Below, in pieces: positions 28,546 to 55,343 of a DNA stretch of 55,343 bases. Source of the stretch: Oscillospiraceae bacterium. GTDB lineage: Bacteria; Bacillota; Clostridia; Oscillospirales; CAG-382. The stretch covers positions 1 through 55,343 of the forward strand of contig SVQU01000012.1 in NCBI GenBank assembly GCA_015065165.1, in the 5' to 3' direction. A model generated the notes under the pieces. The model ran no database searches and had not been told where the DNA came from. It saw only the letters and a list, made by a program, of their open reading frames with translations. Position 1 is the first letter of the stretch, and every line of letters starts with the position of its first letter. Both the position numbers and the translations under genes were made by a program.

Positions 28546-28561
28546 GAGATTTTATTTAAAG

Positions 28562-28620
28562 TACGCCTTCGGCGTATGAAGTATCGCTTTGCGATATGAA
28601 GTATTTTGCTGCGCAAAATA
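28562..28620. repeat. tandem three-base-loop hairpin array
   Basis: Three hairpins stand in a row: TACGCC-TTC-GGCGTA, TATCGC-TTT-GCGATA and TATTTTGC-TGC-GCAAAATA. The constant spacer TGAAG separates them (28577-28581, 28597-28601). Stems differ but spacer and loop size are kept, like the array at 55191-55331. Confidence 0.8.
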
Positions 28621-28690
28621 TTAATGAAAGGTTTTCGACTCTCGCCGAAAAAATCCAAATTCACATTTGATGTTTCTATGGCAACAATTC

Positions 28691-46725: not shown

Positions 46726-49700
46726 ATGAAAAGACTGGTTTCTGTTTTGTTAACGCTTTTTATGCTGTTAACAATGCTGCCCGTTTCGGCATTTATGTCC
46801 GTAAGCGCCGCAGACAGTACGCTCCTTGGTGAAGCCAACGCAAACAGCAGCTTCACTTTGGATATTTCCGCCCCCGACCATTACGTTGCGGGCGAAGAGG
46901 TTACCGTTACCGTTACGGTAAATAACCTTAATACCACCACCGGTTTGCACCACGTTCAAGGCGGTCTTTATTTCGATCCTGACGTTCTCGGCTTCGGTTT
47001 TGACCTTATCGTGAACAAAGAATTGCCGGGCAGCCTTGTTCCTTACGAAGAATGGGAAGATTTTTCCAAGCTTGGTCAGGATGCAAACGGCAATTGGTAT
47101 ATCGTTATCGATGCTGTTACAGCCGGATACGTAGATGATACAACCGGCGAGTATCTCTTTAGCGATGATATTAAGGACGGCGACCTTGTATTTAACTTTA
47201 CGTTTATTGCAAAAGCCGATGCTACCGGCGACACCGCGGTTTATATCCCCCACGCTACGGTTTTGGGTGATTACTACGATGTAGAGCCTCCTTATGCTCA
47301 CACCGCATACGTTGGTAACGGTAGTATTGACTATATCGCAGAAAAGGTTGTTGAGGATTCTTCTTCCGAGGAGCCTTCCTCTTCCGAAGCACCTTCCTCT
47401 TCCGAAGAACCCTCTTCCGAAGAACCTACTCCTTCCGAAGACCCCTCCAACGGCTTTGATGAAAATGCCGAGCTTTTGGGCGATAAGAATGCGGATGCAT
47501 CCTTTACAATGGATATCACCGCGCCCGAATCCTACGTTGCGGGCGAATCGGTTGTGGTAACCGTTACCGTTAATAACGTAACTGCTTCCACAGGTCTTCA
47601 GCACGTACATGGCAACCTTTATTTCGACACCTCTGTTCTTGGCTTTGCGTTTGCCCTTAAGGACAAACAGGAAGTTAAGAACGCTATGGTTGCTCACAAC
47701 GAATGGGAAGATATGACAAGACTTCGCACCGATGGCAACGGTTTGTGGTGGGTAGAGGTTGACGCTATTACCGCAGGTTACGAAGACCCCGAAAACCCCG
47801 GTGAATATACCTTCACTACCTTGAAGGGCGATAATCAGCTTGTATTCAACATTCCTTTCGTTGCTTTGGCAGATGCAAGCGGTGATACCGAGGTTTATAT
47901 CCCTCACTCTACTGTTAAGAGCGAATATTACGATGCTGTAACCTTCGAGCACATTCCTTACGTTGGTAACGGCAGCGGCGCATATGTTGCAGATGCAACT
48001 CCCGTTGAAGAGCCTTCCTCCGAAGAACCCTCTTCCTCTGAAGAACCCTCTTCTTCCGAAGAACCCTCTTCTGAAGAACCCTCTTCCGAAGAACCTTCTT
48101 CTCCCAAGGAACCCTCCTTGCCCGAATCTCCCGAAAACCTTGTAAACCTTGTTTTGGGCAACTCCTATACTCCCTCGATTACTCCCAACGCTTCTTATCC
48201 CGACAGTGGAAACGAACTTACCGACGGTATTCTTGTAAGCGATTCTAACATTACCGAACCTTACTATAAGGACGAAAAGTGGGTTGGTTACAATCTTACA
48301 AAGTCTCTTCGTTCCTTTGATATTTCTGCTGCACTTGGCGACGGCGAAACCGTTTATGCCCTTTACAGAGTAGAAATCAACTTGGGTACCGATGCGGTTA
48401 CTTCCGGTATACATAACCCCGCAAGTGTTACTGCATACTATAAGAACGGCGATGGCGAATGGGTTCAGTTTGGCGAAACCTATTCTAACGGAACAGGCAT
48501 CACCGATACCGTTGCTTTGAACGTTGTTTTCGAAGAAAAGGGCGTTCGCGCAACCGACATTAAGGTTCAGATTACCGGTAGAGACGGCAAAAACCTTGTT
48601 TGGGTTGGTGAAATTGCCGCTTACGGTGTTGACCCCAACCTTCTTTTGGGCAACTCCTATACCTCTACACTTGATCCCAACCCTTCTTATCCCGACAGCG
48701 GAAACGAACTTACCGACGGTATTCTTGTAAGCGATTCTAACATTACCGAACCTTACTATAAGGACGAAAAGTGGGTAGGTTATACTCTTACCAAGTACGT
48801 TCGTTCCTTCGATATCACTGCTGTACTTGGCGATGGCGAAACCGTTTACAACCTCGAAAAGGTTGCTGTTAACGTAGGTACCGATGCGGTTACCTGCGGT
48901 GTCCACAACCCCGCGGGCATTACCGTGTTCTATAAGAACGGCGATGGCGAATGGAAGCAGTTTGGCACAGCATATTCAAACGCAGAACCTATCACCGATA
49001 CCGTTGCTTTGAACGTTGTTTTCGAATCCGATGCAGTTCGCGCAACTGACGTTAAGATTCAGTTCGCCGGCAGAGACGGCAAAAACCTTGTTTGGGTTGG
49101 CGAAATCTCCGCATACGGCTTTGAAGTTAATTTCAATGATGACATACCTGAAGAAGATTCTTCTGAAGACGTTTCTTCTGAAGATCCTTCCTCCTCCGAA
49201 GACGTTTCTTCTGAAGATCCTTCCTCCTCCGAAGACGTTTCCTCCGAAGAACCCTCTTCCTCCGAAGATATCTCTTCCGAAGAACCCTCTTCCTCCGAAG
49301 ATATCTCTTCCGAAGAACCTTCTTCCTCCGAAGAACCTTCCTCCGAAGAACCCTCTTCCTCCGAAGAACCCTCTTCTTCCGAAGAACCTAGCGTTTCGGA
49401 TGACCTTCTCGGTGTTGAAAACGCTAACCCCAACTTTACAATGGATATTACCGCCCCCGAAAGCTACGTTGCGGGCGAAGAAGTTATTGTAACCGTAACC
49501 GTAAATAACGTAAATGCAATCAACGGTTTGCAGCACGTACACGGCAAGATGTATTTCGATCCCGAAGTTCTTGGCTTTAACGTTCCTCTTAAGGATAAGC
49601 AGGAACTTAAGAATACCTTTGCCGGTCTTAACGAATGGGAAGATATGACCAGACTTCGCACCGACGGCAACGGCATTTGGTGGGTAGAAGTAGATGCTAC

Positions 49701-52332
49701 TACCGCAGGTTACGAAAACCCCGAAAAACCCGGCGAATACCTCATTACCGACGTATTCGAAGATGGTGTGTTGGTATTTAACGTTAAATTTATCGCTTTG
49801 GCAGATGCTACGGGCGATACCGCGGTATACATTCCTCACTCTACCGTATACGGCGACTTTTTCCACCTTACCACTTTCGAGCATACCGCTTACGTAGGTA
49901 ACGGTACAAAGGCATATATCGCCGAGGGCGAAGCAGTTGTTGAACCCTCTTCTTCTGAAGAACCTTCTTCCGAAATTGAGTCCTCTGAGGTTGAATCCTC
50001 CGAAGATATCTCTTCTGAAGAACCCTCTTCCTCCGAAGAACCCTCTTCCTCTGAAGAACCTTCCTCCGAAGAACCCTCTTCTGAAGAACCTTCTTCCTCC
50101 GAAGAACCCTCCTCCGAAGAACCCTCTTCCTCCGAAGAACCCTCTTCCTCTGAAGAGCCTTCCTCCGAAGACCCTTCCTCCGAAGAACCTTCTTCTTCCG
50201 AAGAACCTAGCGTTTCGGATGACCTTCTCGGTGTTGAAAACGCTAACCCCAACTTTACAATGGATATCACTGCACCCGAAACCTACGTTGCGGGCGAAGA
50301 ATTTATTGTAACCGTAACCGTTAACAACGTTAACGCCTCTAAGGGTCTCCAGCACGTACACGGTAAGCTTTATTTCGACCCCGAAATTTTCGGATTTAAC
50401 GTTGCGCTTAAGGATAAGCAGGAACTTAAGAACACCTTTGCCGGTCTTAATGAATGGGAAGATATGACCAGACTTCGCACCGACGGCAACGGCACTTGGT
50501 GGGTAGAGGTTGACGCGGTTACCGGTGGTTATGAAGATCCCAATAACTCCGGCGAATACCTCTTTACCGACGTATTTGAAGACGGAATCCTCGTATTCAA
50601 TATTAAGTTTATTGCTTTGGCAGATGCTATAGGCGACACTGCTTTGTATATTCCTCACTCCACCGTATACGGCGACCATTACGAAATGGTTTACCCCTAT
50701 ACTCACACCTCTTATATCGGTAACGGCTCCGCAGTAACTATTGCGCGCAGTGTACACGTATGTAAGGGCGTTGGCGAATGGATTTCCGACGGCACCAACC
50801 ACTGGAAGCTCTGTACCTGCGGTGAAAAGGTTGATGTTGCAACCCACACCCCCGGCGCAGAAGCCGATTGTGAAAACGATCAAATCTGTACCGAATGTGA
50901 ACGTGTACTCGTAGAAGCATACGGCCATAAGGCTGAAAGCGACAAACTCTACAGCGATGCAAACAACCACTGGAAGCTTTGCTCTTGCGGTGAAAAGGTT
51001 GATGTTACAGCCCATACCCCCGGCGCAGAAGCAGATTGCGAAAACGATCAAATCTGTACCGAATGTGAACGTGTACTCGTAGAAGCATACGGCCACAAGG
51101 CTGAAAGCGACAAGCTCTACAGCGATGCAAACAACCACTGGAAGCTTTGCTCTTGCGGTGAAAAGGTTGATGTTACAGCCCACACCCCCGGCGCAGAAGC
51201 AGATTGCGAAAACGATCAAATCTGTACCGAATGCGAACGCGTACTCGTAGAAGCATACGGCCACAAGGCTGAAAGCGACAAGCTCTACAGCGACGGAACC
51301 AACCACTGGAAGCTTTGCTCTTGCGGTGAAAAGGTAGATGTAGCAGAACACACCCCCGGCACAGAAGCAGATTGCGAAAACGATCAGATTTGTACCGAAT
51401 GTGAACACGTACTCGTAGAAGCATACGGCCACAAGGCTGAAAGCGACAAGCTCTACAGCGATGCAAACAACCACTGGAAGCTTTGCTCTTGCGGCGAAAA
51501 GGTTGATGTTACAGCCCACACCCCCGGTGCAGAAGCAGATTGCGAAAACGATCAAATCTGTACCGAATGTGAACGTGTACTCGTAGAAGCATACGGCCAC
51601 AAGGCCGAAAGCGACAAACTCTACAGCGATGCAAACAACCACTGGAAGCTCTGCTCTTGCGGCGAAAAGGTTGATGTTACAGCCCACACCCCCGGCGCAG
51701 AAGCAGATTGCGAAAACGATCAAATCTGTACCGAATGTGAACATGTACTTGTAGAAGCATACGGGCACAAGGCTGAAAGCGACAAGCTCTACAGCGATGC
51801 AAACAACCACTGGAAGCTCTGCTCTTGCGGTGAAAAGGTTGATGTTACAGCCCACACCCCCGGCGCAGAAGCAGATTGCGAAAACGATCAAATCTGTACC
51901 GAATGTGAACGCGTACTCGTAGAAGCATACGGACACTCCGCTAAGGATGACAAGTGGTACAACGATGAAAATAACCACTGGCACGAATGTAACTGCGGCG
52001 AGCATTTGAACGAAGATGCACACGAAGGCGAATGGGTTGTTACGGTTGAACCCGATTTCCGTGTTGAAGGTGAAGAATCTCTTATCTGTAAGACCTGCGG
52101 ACACGTAATGGAAACCAGAACACTTCCCTCGAAGTATATGATTGGCGACCTCGACTACAACGGCGAGATCACCTCTATGGACTACATTCTTCTTAAGCGT
52201 GTATACTTTGATGCATATCAGATCGCAGATATAAGAGCTGCCGACATTAACGGCGACGGCGAGATTACCTCTATGGACTATATCTTGCTCAAGCGCGTAT
52301 ACTTCGACGTATACCACATAACTGTTGATTAA
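46726..52332 (+). CDS. secreted cohesin-like/dockerin scaffold protein with Cys repeats
   Basis: Secreted protein of 1868 residues and the centre of the putative assembly. A signal peptide (1-29) is followed by cohesin-like modules at about 30-205, 246-423, 892-1066 and 1164-1340. Each has the pattern GEEVTVTVTVNN, then G(L)xHVxGxLYFDPxVLGF, WW/YVxxDAxTxGY and DGxLVFNxxFIALADA. Two near-identical discoidin-like modules (about 469-802) lie between the second and third. Linkers are SSEEP repeats. Seven 56-residue Cys/His repeats and a diverged eighth (about 1344-1803) follow, then a C-terminal dockerin (1805-1868) with loops DLDYNGEITSMD and DINGDGEITSMD. The cohesin assignment is from pattern only; no sortase or SLH anchor is present, so attachment would be through its own dockerin. 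Confidence 0.78.
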   Translation: MKRLVSVLLTLFMLLTMLPVSAFMSVSAADSTLLGEANANSSFTLDISAPDHYVAGEEVTVTVTVNNLNTTTGLHHVQGGLYFDPDVLGFGFDLIVNKELPGSLVPYEEWEDFSKLGQDANGNWYIVIDAVTAGYVDDTTGEYLFSDDIKDGDLVFNFTFIAKADATGDTAVYIPHATVLGDYYDVEPPYAHTAYVGNGSIDYIAEKVVEDSSSEEPSSSEAPSSSEEPSSEEPTPSEDPSNGFDENAELLGDKNADASFTMDITAPESYVAGESVVVTVTVNNVTASTGLQHVHGNLYFDTSVLGFAFALKDKQEVKNAMVAHNEWEDMTRLRTDGNGLWWVEVDAITAGYEDPENPGEYTFTTLKGDNQLVFNIPFVALADASGDTEVYIPHSTVKSEYYDAVTFEHIPYVGNGSGAYVADATPVEEPSSEEPSSSEEPSSSEEPSSEEPSSEEPSSPKEPSLPESPENLVNLVLGNSYTPSITPNASYPDSGNELTDGILVSDSNITEPYYKDEKWVGYNLTKSLRSFDISAALGDGETVYALYRVEINLGTDAVTSGIHNPASVTAYYKNGDGEWVQFGETYSNGTGITDTVALNVVFEEKGVRATDIKVQITGRDGKNLVWVGEIAAYGVDPNLLLGNSYTSTLDPNPSYPDSGNELTDGILVSDSNITEPYYKDEKWVGYTLTKYVRSFDITAVLGDGETVYNLEKVAVNVGTDAVTCGVHNPAGITVFYKNGDGEWKQFGTAYSNAEPITDTVALNVVFESDAVRATDVKIQFAGRDGKNLVWVGEISAYGFEVNFNDDIPEEDSSEDVSSEDPSSSEDVSSEDPSSSEDVSSEEPSSSEDISSEEPSSSEDISSEEPSSSEEPSSEEPSSSEEPSSSEEPSVSDDLLGVENANPNFTMDITAPESYVAGEEVIVTVTVNNVNAINGLQHVHGKMYFDPEVLGFNVPLKDKQELKNTFAGLNEWEDMTRLRTDGNGIWWVEVDATTAGYENPEKPGEYLITDVFEDGVLVFNVKFIALADATGDTAVYIPHSTVYGDFFHLTTFEHTAYVGNGTKAYIAEGEAVVEPSSSEEPSSEIESSEVESSEDISSEEPSSSEEPSSSEEPSSEEPSSEEPSSSEEPSSEEPSSSEEPSSSEEPSSEDPSSEEPSSSEEPSVSDDLLGVENANPNFTMDITAPETYVAGEEFIVTVTVNNVNASKGLQHVHGKLYFDPEIFGFNVALKDKQELKNTFAGLNEWEDMTRLRTDGNGTWWVEVDAVTGGYEDPNNSGEYLFTDVFEDGILVFNIKFIALADAIGDTALYIPHSTVYGDHYEMVYPYTHTSYIGNGSAVTIARSVHVCKGVGEWISDGTNHWKLCTCGEKVDVATHTPGAEADCENDQICTECERVLVEAYGHKAESDKLYSDANNHWKLCSCGEKVDVTAHTPGAEADCENDQICTECERVLVEAYGHKAESDKLYSDANNHWKLCSCGEKVDVTAHTPGAEADCENDQICTECERVLVEAYGHKAESDKLYSDGTNHWKLCSCGEKVDVAEHTPGTEADCENDQICTECEHVLVEAYGHKAESDKLYSDANNHWKLCSCGEKVDVTAHTPGAEADCENDQICTECERVLVEAYGHKAESDKLYSDANNHWKLCSCGEKVDVTAHTPGAEADCENDQICTECEHVLVEAYGHKAESDKLYSDANNHWKLCSCGEKVDVTAHTPGAEADCENDQICTECERVLVEAYGHSAKDDKWYNDENNHWHECNCGEHLNEDAHEGEWVVTVEPDFRVEGEESLICKTCGHVMETRTLPSKYMIGDLDYNGEITSMDYILLKRVYFDAYQIADIRAADINGDGEITSMDYILLKRVYFDVYHITVD
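49145..49390 (+). repeat. Ser/Glu-rich codon repeat (linker 3 of protein 2)
   Basis: Repeats of units such as GATATCTCTTCCGAAGAACCC encode SSEDVSSEDPS and SSEEPSSSEE runs between discoidin-like module 2 and cohesin-like module 3. Confidence 0.85.
49940..50210 (+). repeat. Ser/Glu/Pro-rich codon repeat (linker 4 of protein 2)
   Basis: SSEEP-type units separate cohesin-like modules 3 and 4. The closing segment, SSSEEPSVSDDLLGVENANP, is shared with the end of linker 3, so module and linker were duplicated together. Confidence 0.85.
50755..52134 (+). repeat. tandem 168-bp Cys/His repeats (seven plus a diverged eighth)
   Basis: Units start at 50755, 50923, 51091, 51259, 51427, 51595, 51763 and 51931. 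Each 56-residue unit contains NHWKLCSCGEKVD, then HTPGAEADCENDQICTEC and VLVEAYGH. Four Cys and several His per unit suggest a small zinc-bound module. Units 2-7 are nearly identical in DNA, indicating recent duplication; unit 8 is diverged and reads into the dockerin. Confidence 0.92.
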
Positions 52333-52343
52333 ACTATAAAAAG

Positions 52344-52377
52344 TGCCGAAACGGGTTTTCCGTTTCGGCATTTCTTT
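52344..52377 (+). terminator. terminator of dockerin protein 2
   Basis: TGCCGAAACGG / CCGTTTCGGCA perfect 11-bp stem (52344-52354, 52360-52370) followed by TTTCTTTAT. Confidence 0.88.
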
Positions 52378-52433
52378 ATACACCGTTTGTTTGTACAAAA
52401 GGGCGAAAATGTTTTTTTGTACCCCACCATCTG

Positions 52434-52462
52434 TTGACAATATATCTAAAATGGTGTATAAT
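52434..52462 (+). promoter_or_regulatory. consensus promoter of dockerin protein 3
   Basis: TTGACA (52434-52439) and TATAAT (52457-52462) with a 17-base spacer. The gene is therefore not in an operon with protein 2, although it is 194 bases downstream. Confidence 0.88.
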
Positions 52463-52525
52463 ACTGACATAAGTATGTAAACAGCGCGCGTATATGTAAA
52501 AAAGGCGCGTAAACGGAGGTTAATT

Positions 52526-55066
52526 ATGCAAAAAATCAAAAAGCTGTTGTGCGTTCTTTTGGTTGCCACCATGGTTTTCTCTATGGTTGTTGCTACCACT
52601 TTGAGCGCTTCTGCAGCATCACCTTTACCTCACCTTGTTCAGCTTGACACCGTTTGGAAGAGCTATTCCTACGGCGGCGGCACTCTTTATAAAACAGGTT
52701 GTGGTATTTTCTCGTTAAGTAACGCTGTAGGTTATCTTACAGGTAAAAGAATCGACGTTCCCACTGCCGCAAAGTGGGCTCACAGCATTAATGCTTATAA
52801 CGTAAACGGCGGCGACGGTACATACAGATTGGTTCTTTACCCTAAGGTTCAGGCTAAATATGGCGCGCAGTATGGCTTCACCTTGAACTGCAACGGCGGT
52901 CAGGGTTGGTGGGCAGGTTCTTCCAGCTCGGTTCTTAAACAGCACCTTGCCAACGGCGGTGTTGCTATCGGCCACGTTCCCGGCCACTTTATCGCTATTG
53001 TAGACTATAACTACACCACCAATAAATTCCACGTACTTGACAGTGCACCTTCTACCGCAAGAGGTACAACCAGCGGCAGAGGCGACTGTTGGGTAACTCA
53101 GTCCCGCCTTGCTACCGGCAAGCTTAAGCTGGACTGGTTCTGTCTCCTTTCTGCAACAGGTACTCCCGCAGACGAACAGGATAACGAAAAATCCCTTCTT
53201 GCATCTGCAATCGAAACCGCAAAGGATAAGCGTTACGACCAATACAGCGCGGAAAGTATTGCTACCTTCCGTTCTGCTTACAGCAACGCGGTTACGGTTT
53301 ATAATAATGCATCCTCTACTTCCGATAACTATAAATCCGCAAGAACCGCTTTGGAATCGGCTATGAAAACCTCTGCCGCTACCATCGTTTCCTCGGGTAA
53401 ATCCTACACTACTTCTGCTGTGTTCAATCCCGATGGCGACCAAAAGGACAACGGCGTTAAGCTTGTTGACGGCTCTAAGGGTAATTCCGACGGCGGTACC
53501 GCAAACTTCGTTGGCTTCAAGGGCGAAGCAAGCGTTGTTGTAGACCTCGGTTCTGTTCAGCAGTCCAATATGTACAAAATTTATATGACAGCGGGCGACT
53601 GGGGTGTTGCAGTTCCTTACGGCGACCAGCTCTCTATGAAAATTTCTGTTTCGGATAACAACTCTACCTTTACCGAGGTTGCTTCCGTAAATAATTCTAT
53701 CCGTACAGGCGTTAAAAACGGCAATTGGGAAACCGTAACTCTTACCGCCGTTTTGGACCAAAAGGTCAGCGCAAGATATGTTAAATTTACAGTTAACAGC
53801 ACCGCTTCCAACAATTTCGTTTGGTTGGATGAGGTTGAGGTTATGTCCGGCGATCCCTTGCTTTCGGGCCATATCTATATAAACGGCATTAACAAAAAAA
53901 TCGGCTCGGGCGACTGTTTTATCTTCACCCCTGCCTTCGGCGCAATCACTGTTGACACCGCAAACCACGCTTGGACAGCAAACGTTGTTGCAAAGTGGGA
54001 CGAGGTTAAATACGGTTACGTTGTAACACAGCGTTTCTTCGGCGAAGGCGCATCTACACCTTCCGTAACCTTGGCTTCCGATGAAATCTTTATTGCCGCT
54101 AACAACTGGGAAACCGGTGTTACCGACGGCAGTGCGGTTAAAGGCAGTGCGGCTAACACCAACACTGTAAACGCAATTCAGGTTGGCGATATCGTTCGTC
54201 TTGACGGTATCGACGTTGTATATACCAATACAATCGAGGTGGCTTCCTACGTTAAGGTTGAAACCGCTTCGGCACCCCCTGTACAGACCGAATGCCCCCA
54301 CGTTGCAGGTCCCGAAAGCTGTACAAATGATCAGGTTTGCTTAAGCTGCGGCGTTGTTCTTGCAACCGCAAAGGGACACGATGACGGCGAATGGGAACTT
54401 GAAGAAAACCTTAAGCACCGCAAGTGTACCAAGTGTGGCGAGGTTCTCGAAACTGTGGAGATAAGCGACGAGGATCCTGCCGATATGGGCGATATCGACG
54501 GCAACGGTTCTTTGAACTCTATGGACTATATGCTCCTTAAGCGCGCATATTTCGATGCTTACGCTATGGCAAAGCCTGAAAATGGCGACATTGACGTTAA
54601 CGGCAATTTGAACTCTATGGACTATATGCTTCTTAAGCGTGCTTACTTCGGCATTTATAAGCTGAACGACGGCGCTTACGAATCTGCATACGAAGCAGTT
54701 GTTAACGATTGGAAATCCCAGGAAAGCGACACCGTTATTCTCGGCGGCGCATGGACCTATGACCTTAACGATGACGGCGACCGCGAGCTTGTGGTTCAGA
54801 TTTCCGACGATGAGGGCAGAAGCACCTATTACTTCTACGCTTACGAAAACGAAAAGGCTGTAAAAATCGGCGAAAAATACGGCGATTACAGCACAATCGA
54901 AACCGACGGCGCAAACCTTTATATCTGCTGTACCGATGCAGATTTGCACATCGCTTATAAGGTTACTTATGAAAACGGCACCTTCTTGACCAAGAGCCAA
55001 GAATACGACGGCGAAAAACTTCCTTACGTAGGTACCGACGTAGATAATCCTTTGAAAGCGTTTTAA
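52526..55066 (+). CDS. secreted C39-like peptidase with discoidin-like, Cys and dockerin modules
   Basis: Secreted protein of 846 residues. A signal peptide (1-31, ending SASAA) precedes a papain-fold domain of the peptidase C39-like type (about 32-215): Cys59 in KTGCGIFSLSNAVGYLTG, a His near 154 in PGHFIAIVDY and an Asp near 172 in HVLDSAPS form the likely triad. Then come a FIVAR-like helical repeat (about 215-285), a discoidin-like module (about 290-445), a beta module (about 450-590), a Cys/His module like those of protein 2 (CPH ... CTNDQVCLSCG ... CTKCGE), a type I dockerin (about 652-712; DIDGNGSLNSMD and DIDVNGNLNSMD) and a C-terminal domain of 130 residues with a DLNDDGDRELVV calcium-like loop. 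C39-like domains cleave peptides, but this one has no transporter part, so it may process or degrade extracellular proteins. Confidence 0.82.
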   Translation: MQKIKKLLCVLLVATMVFSMVVATTLSASAASPLPHLVQLDTVWKSYSYGGGTLYKTGCGIFSLSNAVGYLTGKRIDVPTAAKWAHSINAYNVNGGDGTYRLVLYPKVQAKYGAQYGFTLNCNGGQGWWAGSSSSVLKQHLANGGVAIGHVPGHFIAIVDYNYTTNKFHVLDSAPSTARGTTSGRGDCWVTQSRLATGKLKLDWFCLLSATGTPADEQDNEKSLLASAIETAKDKRYDQYSAESIATFRSAYSNAVTVYNNASSTSDNYKSARTALESAMKTSAATIVSSGKSYTTSAVFNPDGDQKDNGVKLVDGSKGNSDGGTANFVGFKGEASVVVDLGSVQQSNMYKIYMTAGDWGVAVPYGDQLSMKISVSDNNSTFTEVASVNNSIRTGVKNGNWETVTLTAVLDQKVSARYVKFTVNSTASNNFVWLDEVEVMSGDPLLSGHIYINGINKKIGSGDCFIFTPAFGAITVDTANHAWTANVVAKWDEVKYGYVVTQRFFGEGASTPSVTLASDEIFIAANNWETGVTDGSAVKGSAANTNTVNAIQVGDIVRLDGIDVVYTNTIEVASYVKVETASAPPVQTECPHVAGPESCTNDQVCLSCGVVLATAKGHDDGEWELEENLKHRKCTKCGEVLETVEISDEDPADMGDIDGNGSLNSMDYMLLKRAYFDAYAMAKPENGDIDVNGNLNSMDYMLLKRAYFGIYKLNDGAYESAYEAVVNDWKSQESDTVILGGAWTYDLNDDGDRELVVQISDDEGRSTYYFYAYENEKAVKIGEKYGDYSTIETDGANLYICCTDADLHIAYKVTYENGTFLTKSQEYDGEKLPYVGTDVDNPLKAF

Positions 55067-55092: not shown

Positions 55093-55128
55093 TGCGAGAC
55101 TTCCCATAAGGAAGTCTCGCAGTTTTAT
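55093..55128 (+). terminator. terminator of dockerin protein 3
   Basis: TGCGAGACTTCC / GGAAGTCTCGCA perfect 12-bp stem with a 5-nt loop, followed by GTTTTATT. Confidence 0.9.
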
Positions 55129-55135
55129 TCGCCGT

Positions 55136-55168
55136 CATGGGGTCCCCGCAAAACATGGTTTTGCGGGG
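55136..55168 (-). repeat. CCCC-hairpin-GGGGACCCC element, copy 3
   Basis: CCCCGCAAAAC (55144-55154) pairs perfectly with GTTTTGCGGGG (55158-55168) around ATG. Read on the minus strand it ends GGGGACCCCATGACGG, matching the GGGGACCCCGATGACG flank of copy 1 at 28382. Confidence 0.8.
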
Positions 55169-55181
55169 TTGTTTATTCAGC

Positions 55182-55334
55182 GAGTGATATTGCTCCGCAG
55201 TGATATTATGCTTCGCATAGTTATATTGCCTACGGCAGTTTAAGGCGAATAAAATAACACTGAAGCCGATAGGCTTCAATAACACTATTGCTTTGCAATA
55301 ATATCACTCCGACGAAGTCGGAATAAAACTTGAA
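55182..55334. repeat. tandem three-base-loop hairpin array with inverted spacers
   Basis: Hairpins TGC-TCC-GCA, ATGC-TTC-GCAT, TGCC-TAC-GGCA, GAAGCC-GATA-GGCTTC, ATTGC-TTT-GCAAT and CCGAC-GAA-GTCGG stand in series. Spacers left of centre read AGTGATATT or AGTTATATT; those right of centre read AATAACACT or AATATCACT, their reverse complement. The array therefore folds back on itself. TTTTATTCGCC near 55123-55133 and GGCGAATAAAA at 55243-55253 form a further inverted pair. No credible gene is present up to the contig end. Confidence 0.82.
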
Positions 55335-55343
55335 AAGCATTAT

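Follow-up and report, generated by a model that had tools for sequence, protein, structure and literature searches.

The intervening sequence (IVS) of 23S rRNA is an insert that carries a small gene and has spread without an obvious transposase. Its product, the 23S-rRNA-intervening-sequence protein (IVP), is also annotated as 'four helix bundle protein' or 'S23 ribosomal protein'; IVP genes are widespread, with no job known to us, and we know of no explanation for the spread of the IVP-encoding 23S rRNA inserts. Gut-1 (RF01706) is a family previously seen only in gut metagenomes and, in the passages of Weinberg et al. (2010, PMC2864571) considered here, guessed to be probably a non-coding RNA (ncRNA).

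Here we describe a palindromic mini-hairpin array that closes the window, by which we mean the whole 55,343-nucleotide stretch of Oscillospiraceae DNA that was analysed. The array probably serves, in cis, as the left end of a small mobile 'IVP element'. No description of this element was found in the open literature searched on Gut-1, IVP and mobile-element topics (subscription papers lay outside this scope), and a minimal mobile element of a new kind explains the array best.

Layout of the array at the contig end

The array starts at about 55121, or at 55094 if its terminator is counted, and is truncated by the end of the contig, which comes 14 bases past the last spacer. Six mini-hairpins lie within 55190-55321 (loops TCC, TTC, TAC, GATA, TTT and GAA), separated by 9-base spacers whose motif inverts at the centre. 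The features below were read from the sequence, with other support named where it exists.

55094..55126, + strand: intrinsic-terminator hairpin GCGAGACTTCC/GGAAGTCTCGC with T-run, left end of the unit
55120..55231, + strand: Rfam RF01706 (Gut-1) hit scoring 46.5 bits, less than the gathering score
55122..55129, + strand: outermost left spacer S0, GTTTTATT; conserved in loci L003, L006, L158, L160, L016 and L026
55127..55183, + strand: first hairpin, with an ATTCGCC arm and a GCGA arm, its loop filled by a 46-base repeat hairpin (55134-55179)
55183..55191, + strand: left spacer S1, AGTGATATT
55191..55199, + strand: mini-hairpin 2 (TGC-TCC-GCA)
55199..55207, + strand: left spacer S2, AGTGATATT
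55208..55218, + strand: mini-hairpin 3 (ATGC-TTC-GCAT); other paired stems in its place in L158, L159 and L160
55219..55227, + strand: left spacer S3, AGTTATATT, a variant
55227..55237, + strand: mini-hairpin 4 (TGCC-TAC-GGCA)
55244..55255, + strand: GGCGAATAAAAT, a second, central partner for the outer left arm, whose ATTCGCC end it repeats in inverted form
55253..55261, - strand: right spacer S'3, AATAACACT, motif inverted
55262..55277, + strand: mini-hairpin 5 (GAAGCC-GATA-GGCTTC); compensatory stems in L158, L159 and L160
55278..55286, - strand: right spacer S'2, AATAACACT
55287..55299, + strand: mini-hairpin 6 (ATTGC-TTT-GCAAT)
55300..55308, - strand: right spacer S'1, AATATCACT
55309..55321, + strand: mini-hairpin 7 (CCGAC-GAA-GTCGG), GNA-type DNA loop; also from loop statistics
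55322..55329, - strand: outermost right spacer S'0, AATAAAAC (9-base form AATAAAACT, 55322-55330)
55330..55343, + strand: start of the IVP promoter, at the contig end; from overlap with contigs C25 and C30

The sequence-only reading had described six mini-hairpins with a constant, inverting spacer. The array itself is real: exact AGTGATATT occurs three times in the window against 0.28 expected, a count that none of 100 shuffles reaches, and its fold is more stable than that of any of 200 shuffles (z = -3.6). The constancy of the spacer does not hold strictly, since AGTTATATT, AATATCACT and AATAAAACT occur beside AGTGATATT and AATAACACT; the spacer is a motif with variants. The start given earlier, 55182, falls inside the element, with the outer spacer, the first hairpin and the terminator lying further left. 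Nor is this a single occurrence: searched with a 244-base query, the same genome yielded 25 related matches.

The terminator hairpin recurs in copies on contigs C16, C12, C39 and C42, and the central partner GGCGAATAAAAT is found in other spacer families as well as in every aligned copy. In L003, L016 and L158, the first hairpin has a loop of 3-4 bases. The 46-base repeat that fills this loop in the window (core GGGGTCCCCGCAAAACATGGTTTTGCGGGG) has similar counterparts inserted in two C42 copies and in L113, and is also found alone at other places in the genome. Just upstream of the array, two adjacent large secreted-protein genes occupy 46726-55066; dockerin-like MDYxLLKR repeats stand near the end of each, and the first also has low-complexity linkers of the SSEEPS type.

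Linkage of arrays to IVP genes

The contig ends in 127 bases that are identical to the first 127 of C25 and C30; the assembly seems to have broken here within a repeat. Both contigs run on into a promoter, the -35 box of which (TTGAAA) lies at 55330-55335 in the window, and then into an IVP gene at 174-482 (PF05635), which is assigned to the window copy through this overlap. The genome has five IVP genes, each of them directly behind an array.

Linkage was quantified with an array score based on convergent six-mer counting with controls, adopted after short stems and protein-repeat regions had swamped hairpin-array detection. Among loci with enough upstream sequence in the same genome and 28 relatives, the upstream score is at least 5 for 36/56 IVP loci compared with 10/613 control windows. 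An independently fetched set of 80 IVP loci, drawn almost entirely from Clostridia of the gut and rumen, gave the same picture (53 of the 73 scored, against 7/863 controls), and 33 of these 73 have a same-strand tRNA gene within 420 bases upstream. With both flanks counted, a convergent score of at least 6 was reached by 106/144 IVP loci, compared with 11/518 control positions (p = 3e-76); these loci include 13 of 16 plasmid or phage records. The scoring is crude, and most of the 21 loci out of 144 that score below 5 look like degenerate arrays by eye. IVP and Gut-1 also co-occur between genomes (both in 55, IVP only in 16, Gut-1 only in 9, neither in 67; p = 1.4e-16).

A terminator stands just upstream of 52/84 arrays, compared with 6/194 control positions, and at many loci the two halves of the array flank an IVP gene at its centre. 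The partner genes are diverse (GNAT, MazG, ASCH, kinase-like, deaminase, nucleotidyltransferase, Vut_1 and others), and homology between loci typically stops near the IVP stop codon. The array could instead be an operator or insulator through which IVP regulates its own operon, in a module that moves only passively by genomic rearrangement. Such a role would suit the promoter (at most two mismatches) that follows directly in 26/64 cases, against 2.3% of shuffles, so that the array abuts the -35 box, as well as the many loci at which the partner gene overlaps the IVP stop as ATGA. It is hard to reconcile, however, with the many dispersed arrays that have both ends in common but no IVP gene or promoter, or with loci at which the gene lies inside the array and one half is downstream; we consider a purely regulatory function unlikely.

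In the subfamily of the window, a hairpin-rich conserved 3′ motif, GGGTTTGGGC...TTTGTATTTACAAATGCGATGCTGGTT, is found after the IVP gene or, in copies that lack IVP, after the promoter (L039 512-590, L040 512-590, L014 at about 1690-1800). A gene behind the C16 unit (L014, about 1800-2600), not assigned to a family, has an inverted repeat, GATAAATAAGAATTT / AAATTCTTATTTATC, at its borders.

Inverted short-repeat arrays also flank IVP on plasmids of Nostoc, Planktothrix, Dolichospermum, Euhalothece, Anabaena, Treponema, Bernardetia and Chlorohelix. These are mostly heptamers without hairpins and seem to be simpler cousins of the element in several other bacterial phyla. Some plasmid IVP genes lie in or beside defence operons (hsdS-hsdR, drmD-pglX, csx2-cas1 and cas2-cas1; L298, L300, L302 and L306). 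A role as a defence system was rejected after PADLOC returned no match for IVP or three partner proteins. Scanning viral contigs with the DNA pattern gave no match. Two unannotated human-faecal 'Bacteriophage sp.' records, MT835815 (L292) and MT835590 (L293), carry array-IVP units, one of them behind a tRNA gene, and may represent bacterial sequence or phage cargo.

Spacer families and IVP

Each array has its own spacer, examples being GTGATATT, GTGAAAT, GTGAAGT, GTGATG, ATGAATTG, TCGATAT, GTTATGA and GCTAAAT. All spacer copies within one array change together, suggesting a trans-acting reader. Across 88 arrays, spacer distance tracks IVP protein distance (Mantel r = 0.66, 0/5000 permutations), a correlation to which simple co-inheritance could contribute in part. 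Pairing between left and right spacers is not supported as the cause of their conservation, as S2/S'2 and S3/S'3 mismatch in the window and spacer identity follows the IVP protein. On balance, we favour the spacers as putative IVP binding sites. Convergent arrays whose motif changes with the protein provide a concrete candidate ligand for IVP, and suggest a mobile-element role for it.

Mini-hairpins and the Gut-1 family

The earlier view that the architecture is maintained, not decaying, is borne out by pairing that is kept while stem sequences vary between copies. At least five Watson-Crick pairs form in 47% of 371 inter-spacer segments, compared with 4% of shuffled segments and 8% of chimeras, in which arms from different arrays were joined. 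The stems thus covary, as tested hairpin by hairpin because variable hairpin lengths rule out column-wise use of the MAFFT alignment. The left-hand loops are TNC/TNNC and the right-hand ones GNA/GNNA, mostly closed by C-G (80/104 and 61/112 of the three- and four-base loops), whereas either class is found in 24% and 19% of other hairpins; in each half, one strand carries loops of the GNA/GNNA type. GNA and GNNA loops are the mark of extraordinarily stable DNA mini-hairpins (PMC4686876). We lean towards folded DNA as the working form of the array. This would give a possible natural use to GNA/GNNA DNA mini-hairpins, otherwise known to us from test-tube DNA and aptamers.

Rfam scans of the window and eight copies returned tRNA and Gut-1 matches only. 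The window copy, at 46.5 bits, is below the Gut-1 gathering cut-off of 50 bits, but 13 other matches in the genome exceed it (best, 73.2 bits), which overturns the statement that no named element has this design: the left half matches Gut-1. Because Gut-1 hits often come as convergent pairs, one per half, the Rfam family corresponds to half of the palindrome. It is present in 64/147 genomes of the order, often in many copies each. The array has been partly catalogued as Gut-1 and probably misread there as a stand-alone RNA, in which case an Rfam 'sRNA' family would be reinterpreted as half of a DNA element. Elsewhere in the window, at 28553-28626, lies a half array with spacer TGAAGTA (Gut-1, 35 bits), apparently without a convergent half or an IVP gene.

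If Gut-1 were read as it has been, the array would be transcribed and act as a structured small RNA, as the RF01706 match to the left half and the 'probably ncRNA' judgement in the passages of PMC2864571 considered here would have it. Several properties argue against this. The array takes up the whole gap from the terminator T-run to the IVP promoter, and no space is left there for a separate array promoter. In-stem G.T and A.C mismatches are about equally frequent (8 and 7, small numbers), so that there is no strand-specific wobble, unlike in an RNA selected on one strand. Left four-base loops are mostly TNNC and never TTCG, and since the structure is a dyad, neither strand presents one consistent loop class. 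The array is, moreover, dispersed in multiple copies. We give a small-RNA function a low probability.

Insertion sites and mobility

Two genomes of one genus carry units of about 320 bases for which both ends are clear. These units lie between the tRNA CCA and differing native terminators, with no clear target-site duplication seen there. Units of this size stand behind several tRNA genes, at times in tandem, and one right end is common to many of them. The same right end follows IVP and its partner in L126 (genome G005), which suggests that the short units arose from a larger element by internal deletion; similarly, copies on C12 and C16 keep the promoter and 3′ part and lack IVP. Such derivatives are a MITE-like trait, as are terminal inverted repeats, which are GTTTTATT...AATAAAAC in the window and of the AGTGATATT...AATATCACT type in other copies. 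Copies without the IVP gene outnumber those with it. The window copy follows a protein gene and the others tRNA genes, and none of these lies within 23S rRNA.

Occupancy was compared between species of one genus, with one genome per species. One tRNA-Ser site holds one family in G012, another in G002 and G015, and no unit in G009 and G005, and the end of a tRNA-Gly cluster holds different families in several genomes and is empty in others. At tRNA-Ala and tRNA-Ser sites, occupancy differs between genomes, but downstream synteny is not conserved. From these comparisons of sequence, it is well supported that the element is mobile, or recently was, and we regard a mobile, IVP-linked element as very probable. 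It would be one more element class that settles behind tRNA genes. Another small element found behind tRNA genes (L267, L272, L262, L283) starts like GGGGATTCGAAGGGCGG and ends in a sequence identical to the 3′ end of the host tRNA (T-arm side to CCA), differing per tRNA.

In the IVP element as we picture it, a unit consists of its own terminator, the palindromic spacer/mini-hairpin array, a promoter, the IVP gene, often one coupled partner and a short right end. It would settle downstream of 3′ ends that form hairpins, most often in the gap from a tRNA CCA to the native terminator, and as the unit brings its own terminator, the tRNA would still be properly ended. IVP oligomers may bind the repeated spacers, and the stable mini-hairpins may keep each strand folded, so that the convergent halves are offered as one single-stranded or cruciform substrate. 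Copies that lack IVP would be moved in trans.

IVP and candidate enzymes

An AlphaFold model of IVP (pLDDT 95) matches 2rld, 2gsc and Avd (4dwl, 8ub7), the accessory protein of diversity-generating retroelements (DGRs), with a TM of about 0.80 to Avd. Conserved residues of IVP include E50, Y53, D59, K63, E70 and E73. It is plausible that IVP binds nucleic acid, as Avd belongs to a ribonucleoprotein that also contains a reverse transcriptase. By the same fold, IVP could act like Avd in a retroelement, with reverse transcriptase supplied in trans, for example by a group IIC intron enzyme that targets terminators; intrinsic terminators are indeed the upstream neighbours of group IIC intron insertions (PMC4424553). 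However, no RVT_1 (PF00078) match was found in the genome of the window (G000, 97% complete), and reverse transcriptase was rejected as the mover there. Among 40 genomes searched, RVT_1 is present in 11 and IVP in 28, and the window and eight copies gave no Rfam match to a group II intron ribozyme core. A retroelement origin is, in our assessment, quite improbable. Spread by a RAYT (Y1) transposase, as for REP/BIME palindromes, would fit a short conserved motif beside variable hairpins in multi-copy, convergent mosaics, but is scarcely credible, as the genome has no Y1_Tnp (PF01797) match in a search that was positive in 6/14 control genomes, and the linked gene is IVP.

For the mobile IVP element, joining by IVP itself, by a host recombinase or by replication-linked annealing is possible. 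That IVP is a recombinase we hold to be doubtful. Equally tentative is the broader proposal that it is the recombination protein of cross-phylum minimal mobile elements, a four-helix bundle in which acidic, lysine and tyrosine residues are invariant and which would read convergent short-motif arrays. Were this broader proposal true, one system would explain the Gut-1 'RNA', heptamer arrays of the cyanobacterial type, the long-puzzling 23S rRNA IVSs and orphan genes for a 'four helix bundle protein'.

Comparison with known systems

The heptamer arrays around IVP on Nostoc, Planktothrix and Dolichospermum plasmids resemble what we take to be the STRR heptamer repeats of cyanobacteria, and a link between STRR and IVP is proposed; the plasmid motifs differ in having no mini-hairpins between them. 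DGR Avd (4dwl, 8ub7) is close to IVP in fold, whereas the genome of the window lacks a reverse transcriptase. Group IIC introns and integron attC cassettes similarly target or use DNA hairpins and terminators, and the partner genes are cassette-like; unlike group IIC introns, the element has no ribozyme match, and the genome lacks a reverse transcriptase. REP/BIME sequences with RAYT share guide-like short motifs beside hairpins, convergent arrays and many non-autonomous copies, but here there is no Y1 transposase, the protein is an unrelated four-helix one, and the hairpins vary freely in sequence around a spacer that is fixed per array.

Gut-1 agrees with the left half of the array in sequence and hairpin structure, and its spacer, GUGAAAU, is one of the spacer families described here. 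Its model, however, spans only one half of a palindromic element, and the passages of PMC2864571 considered here give no gene context, IVP linkage, tRNA sites or mobility. The 23S rRNA IVS encodes a protein of the same family, PF05635 (5e-28), whereas the units described here lie behind tRNA genes or other terminators and carry spacer arrays and, often, a partner gene.
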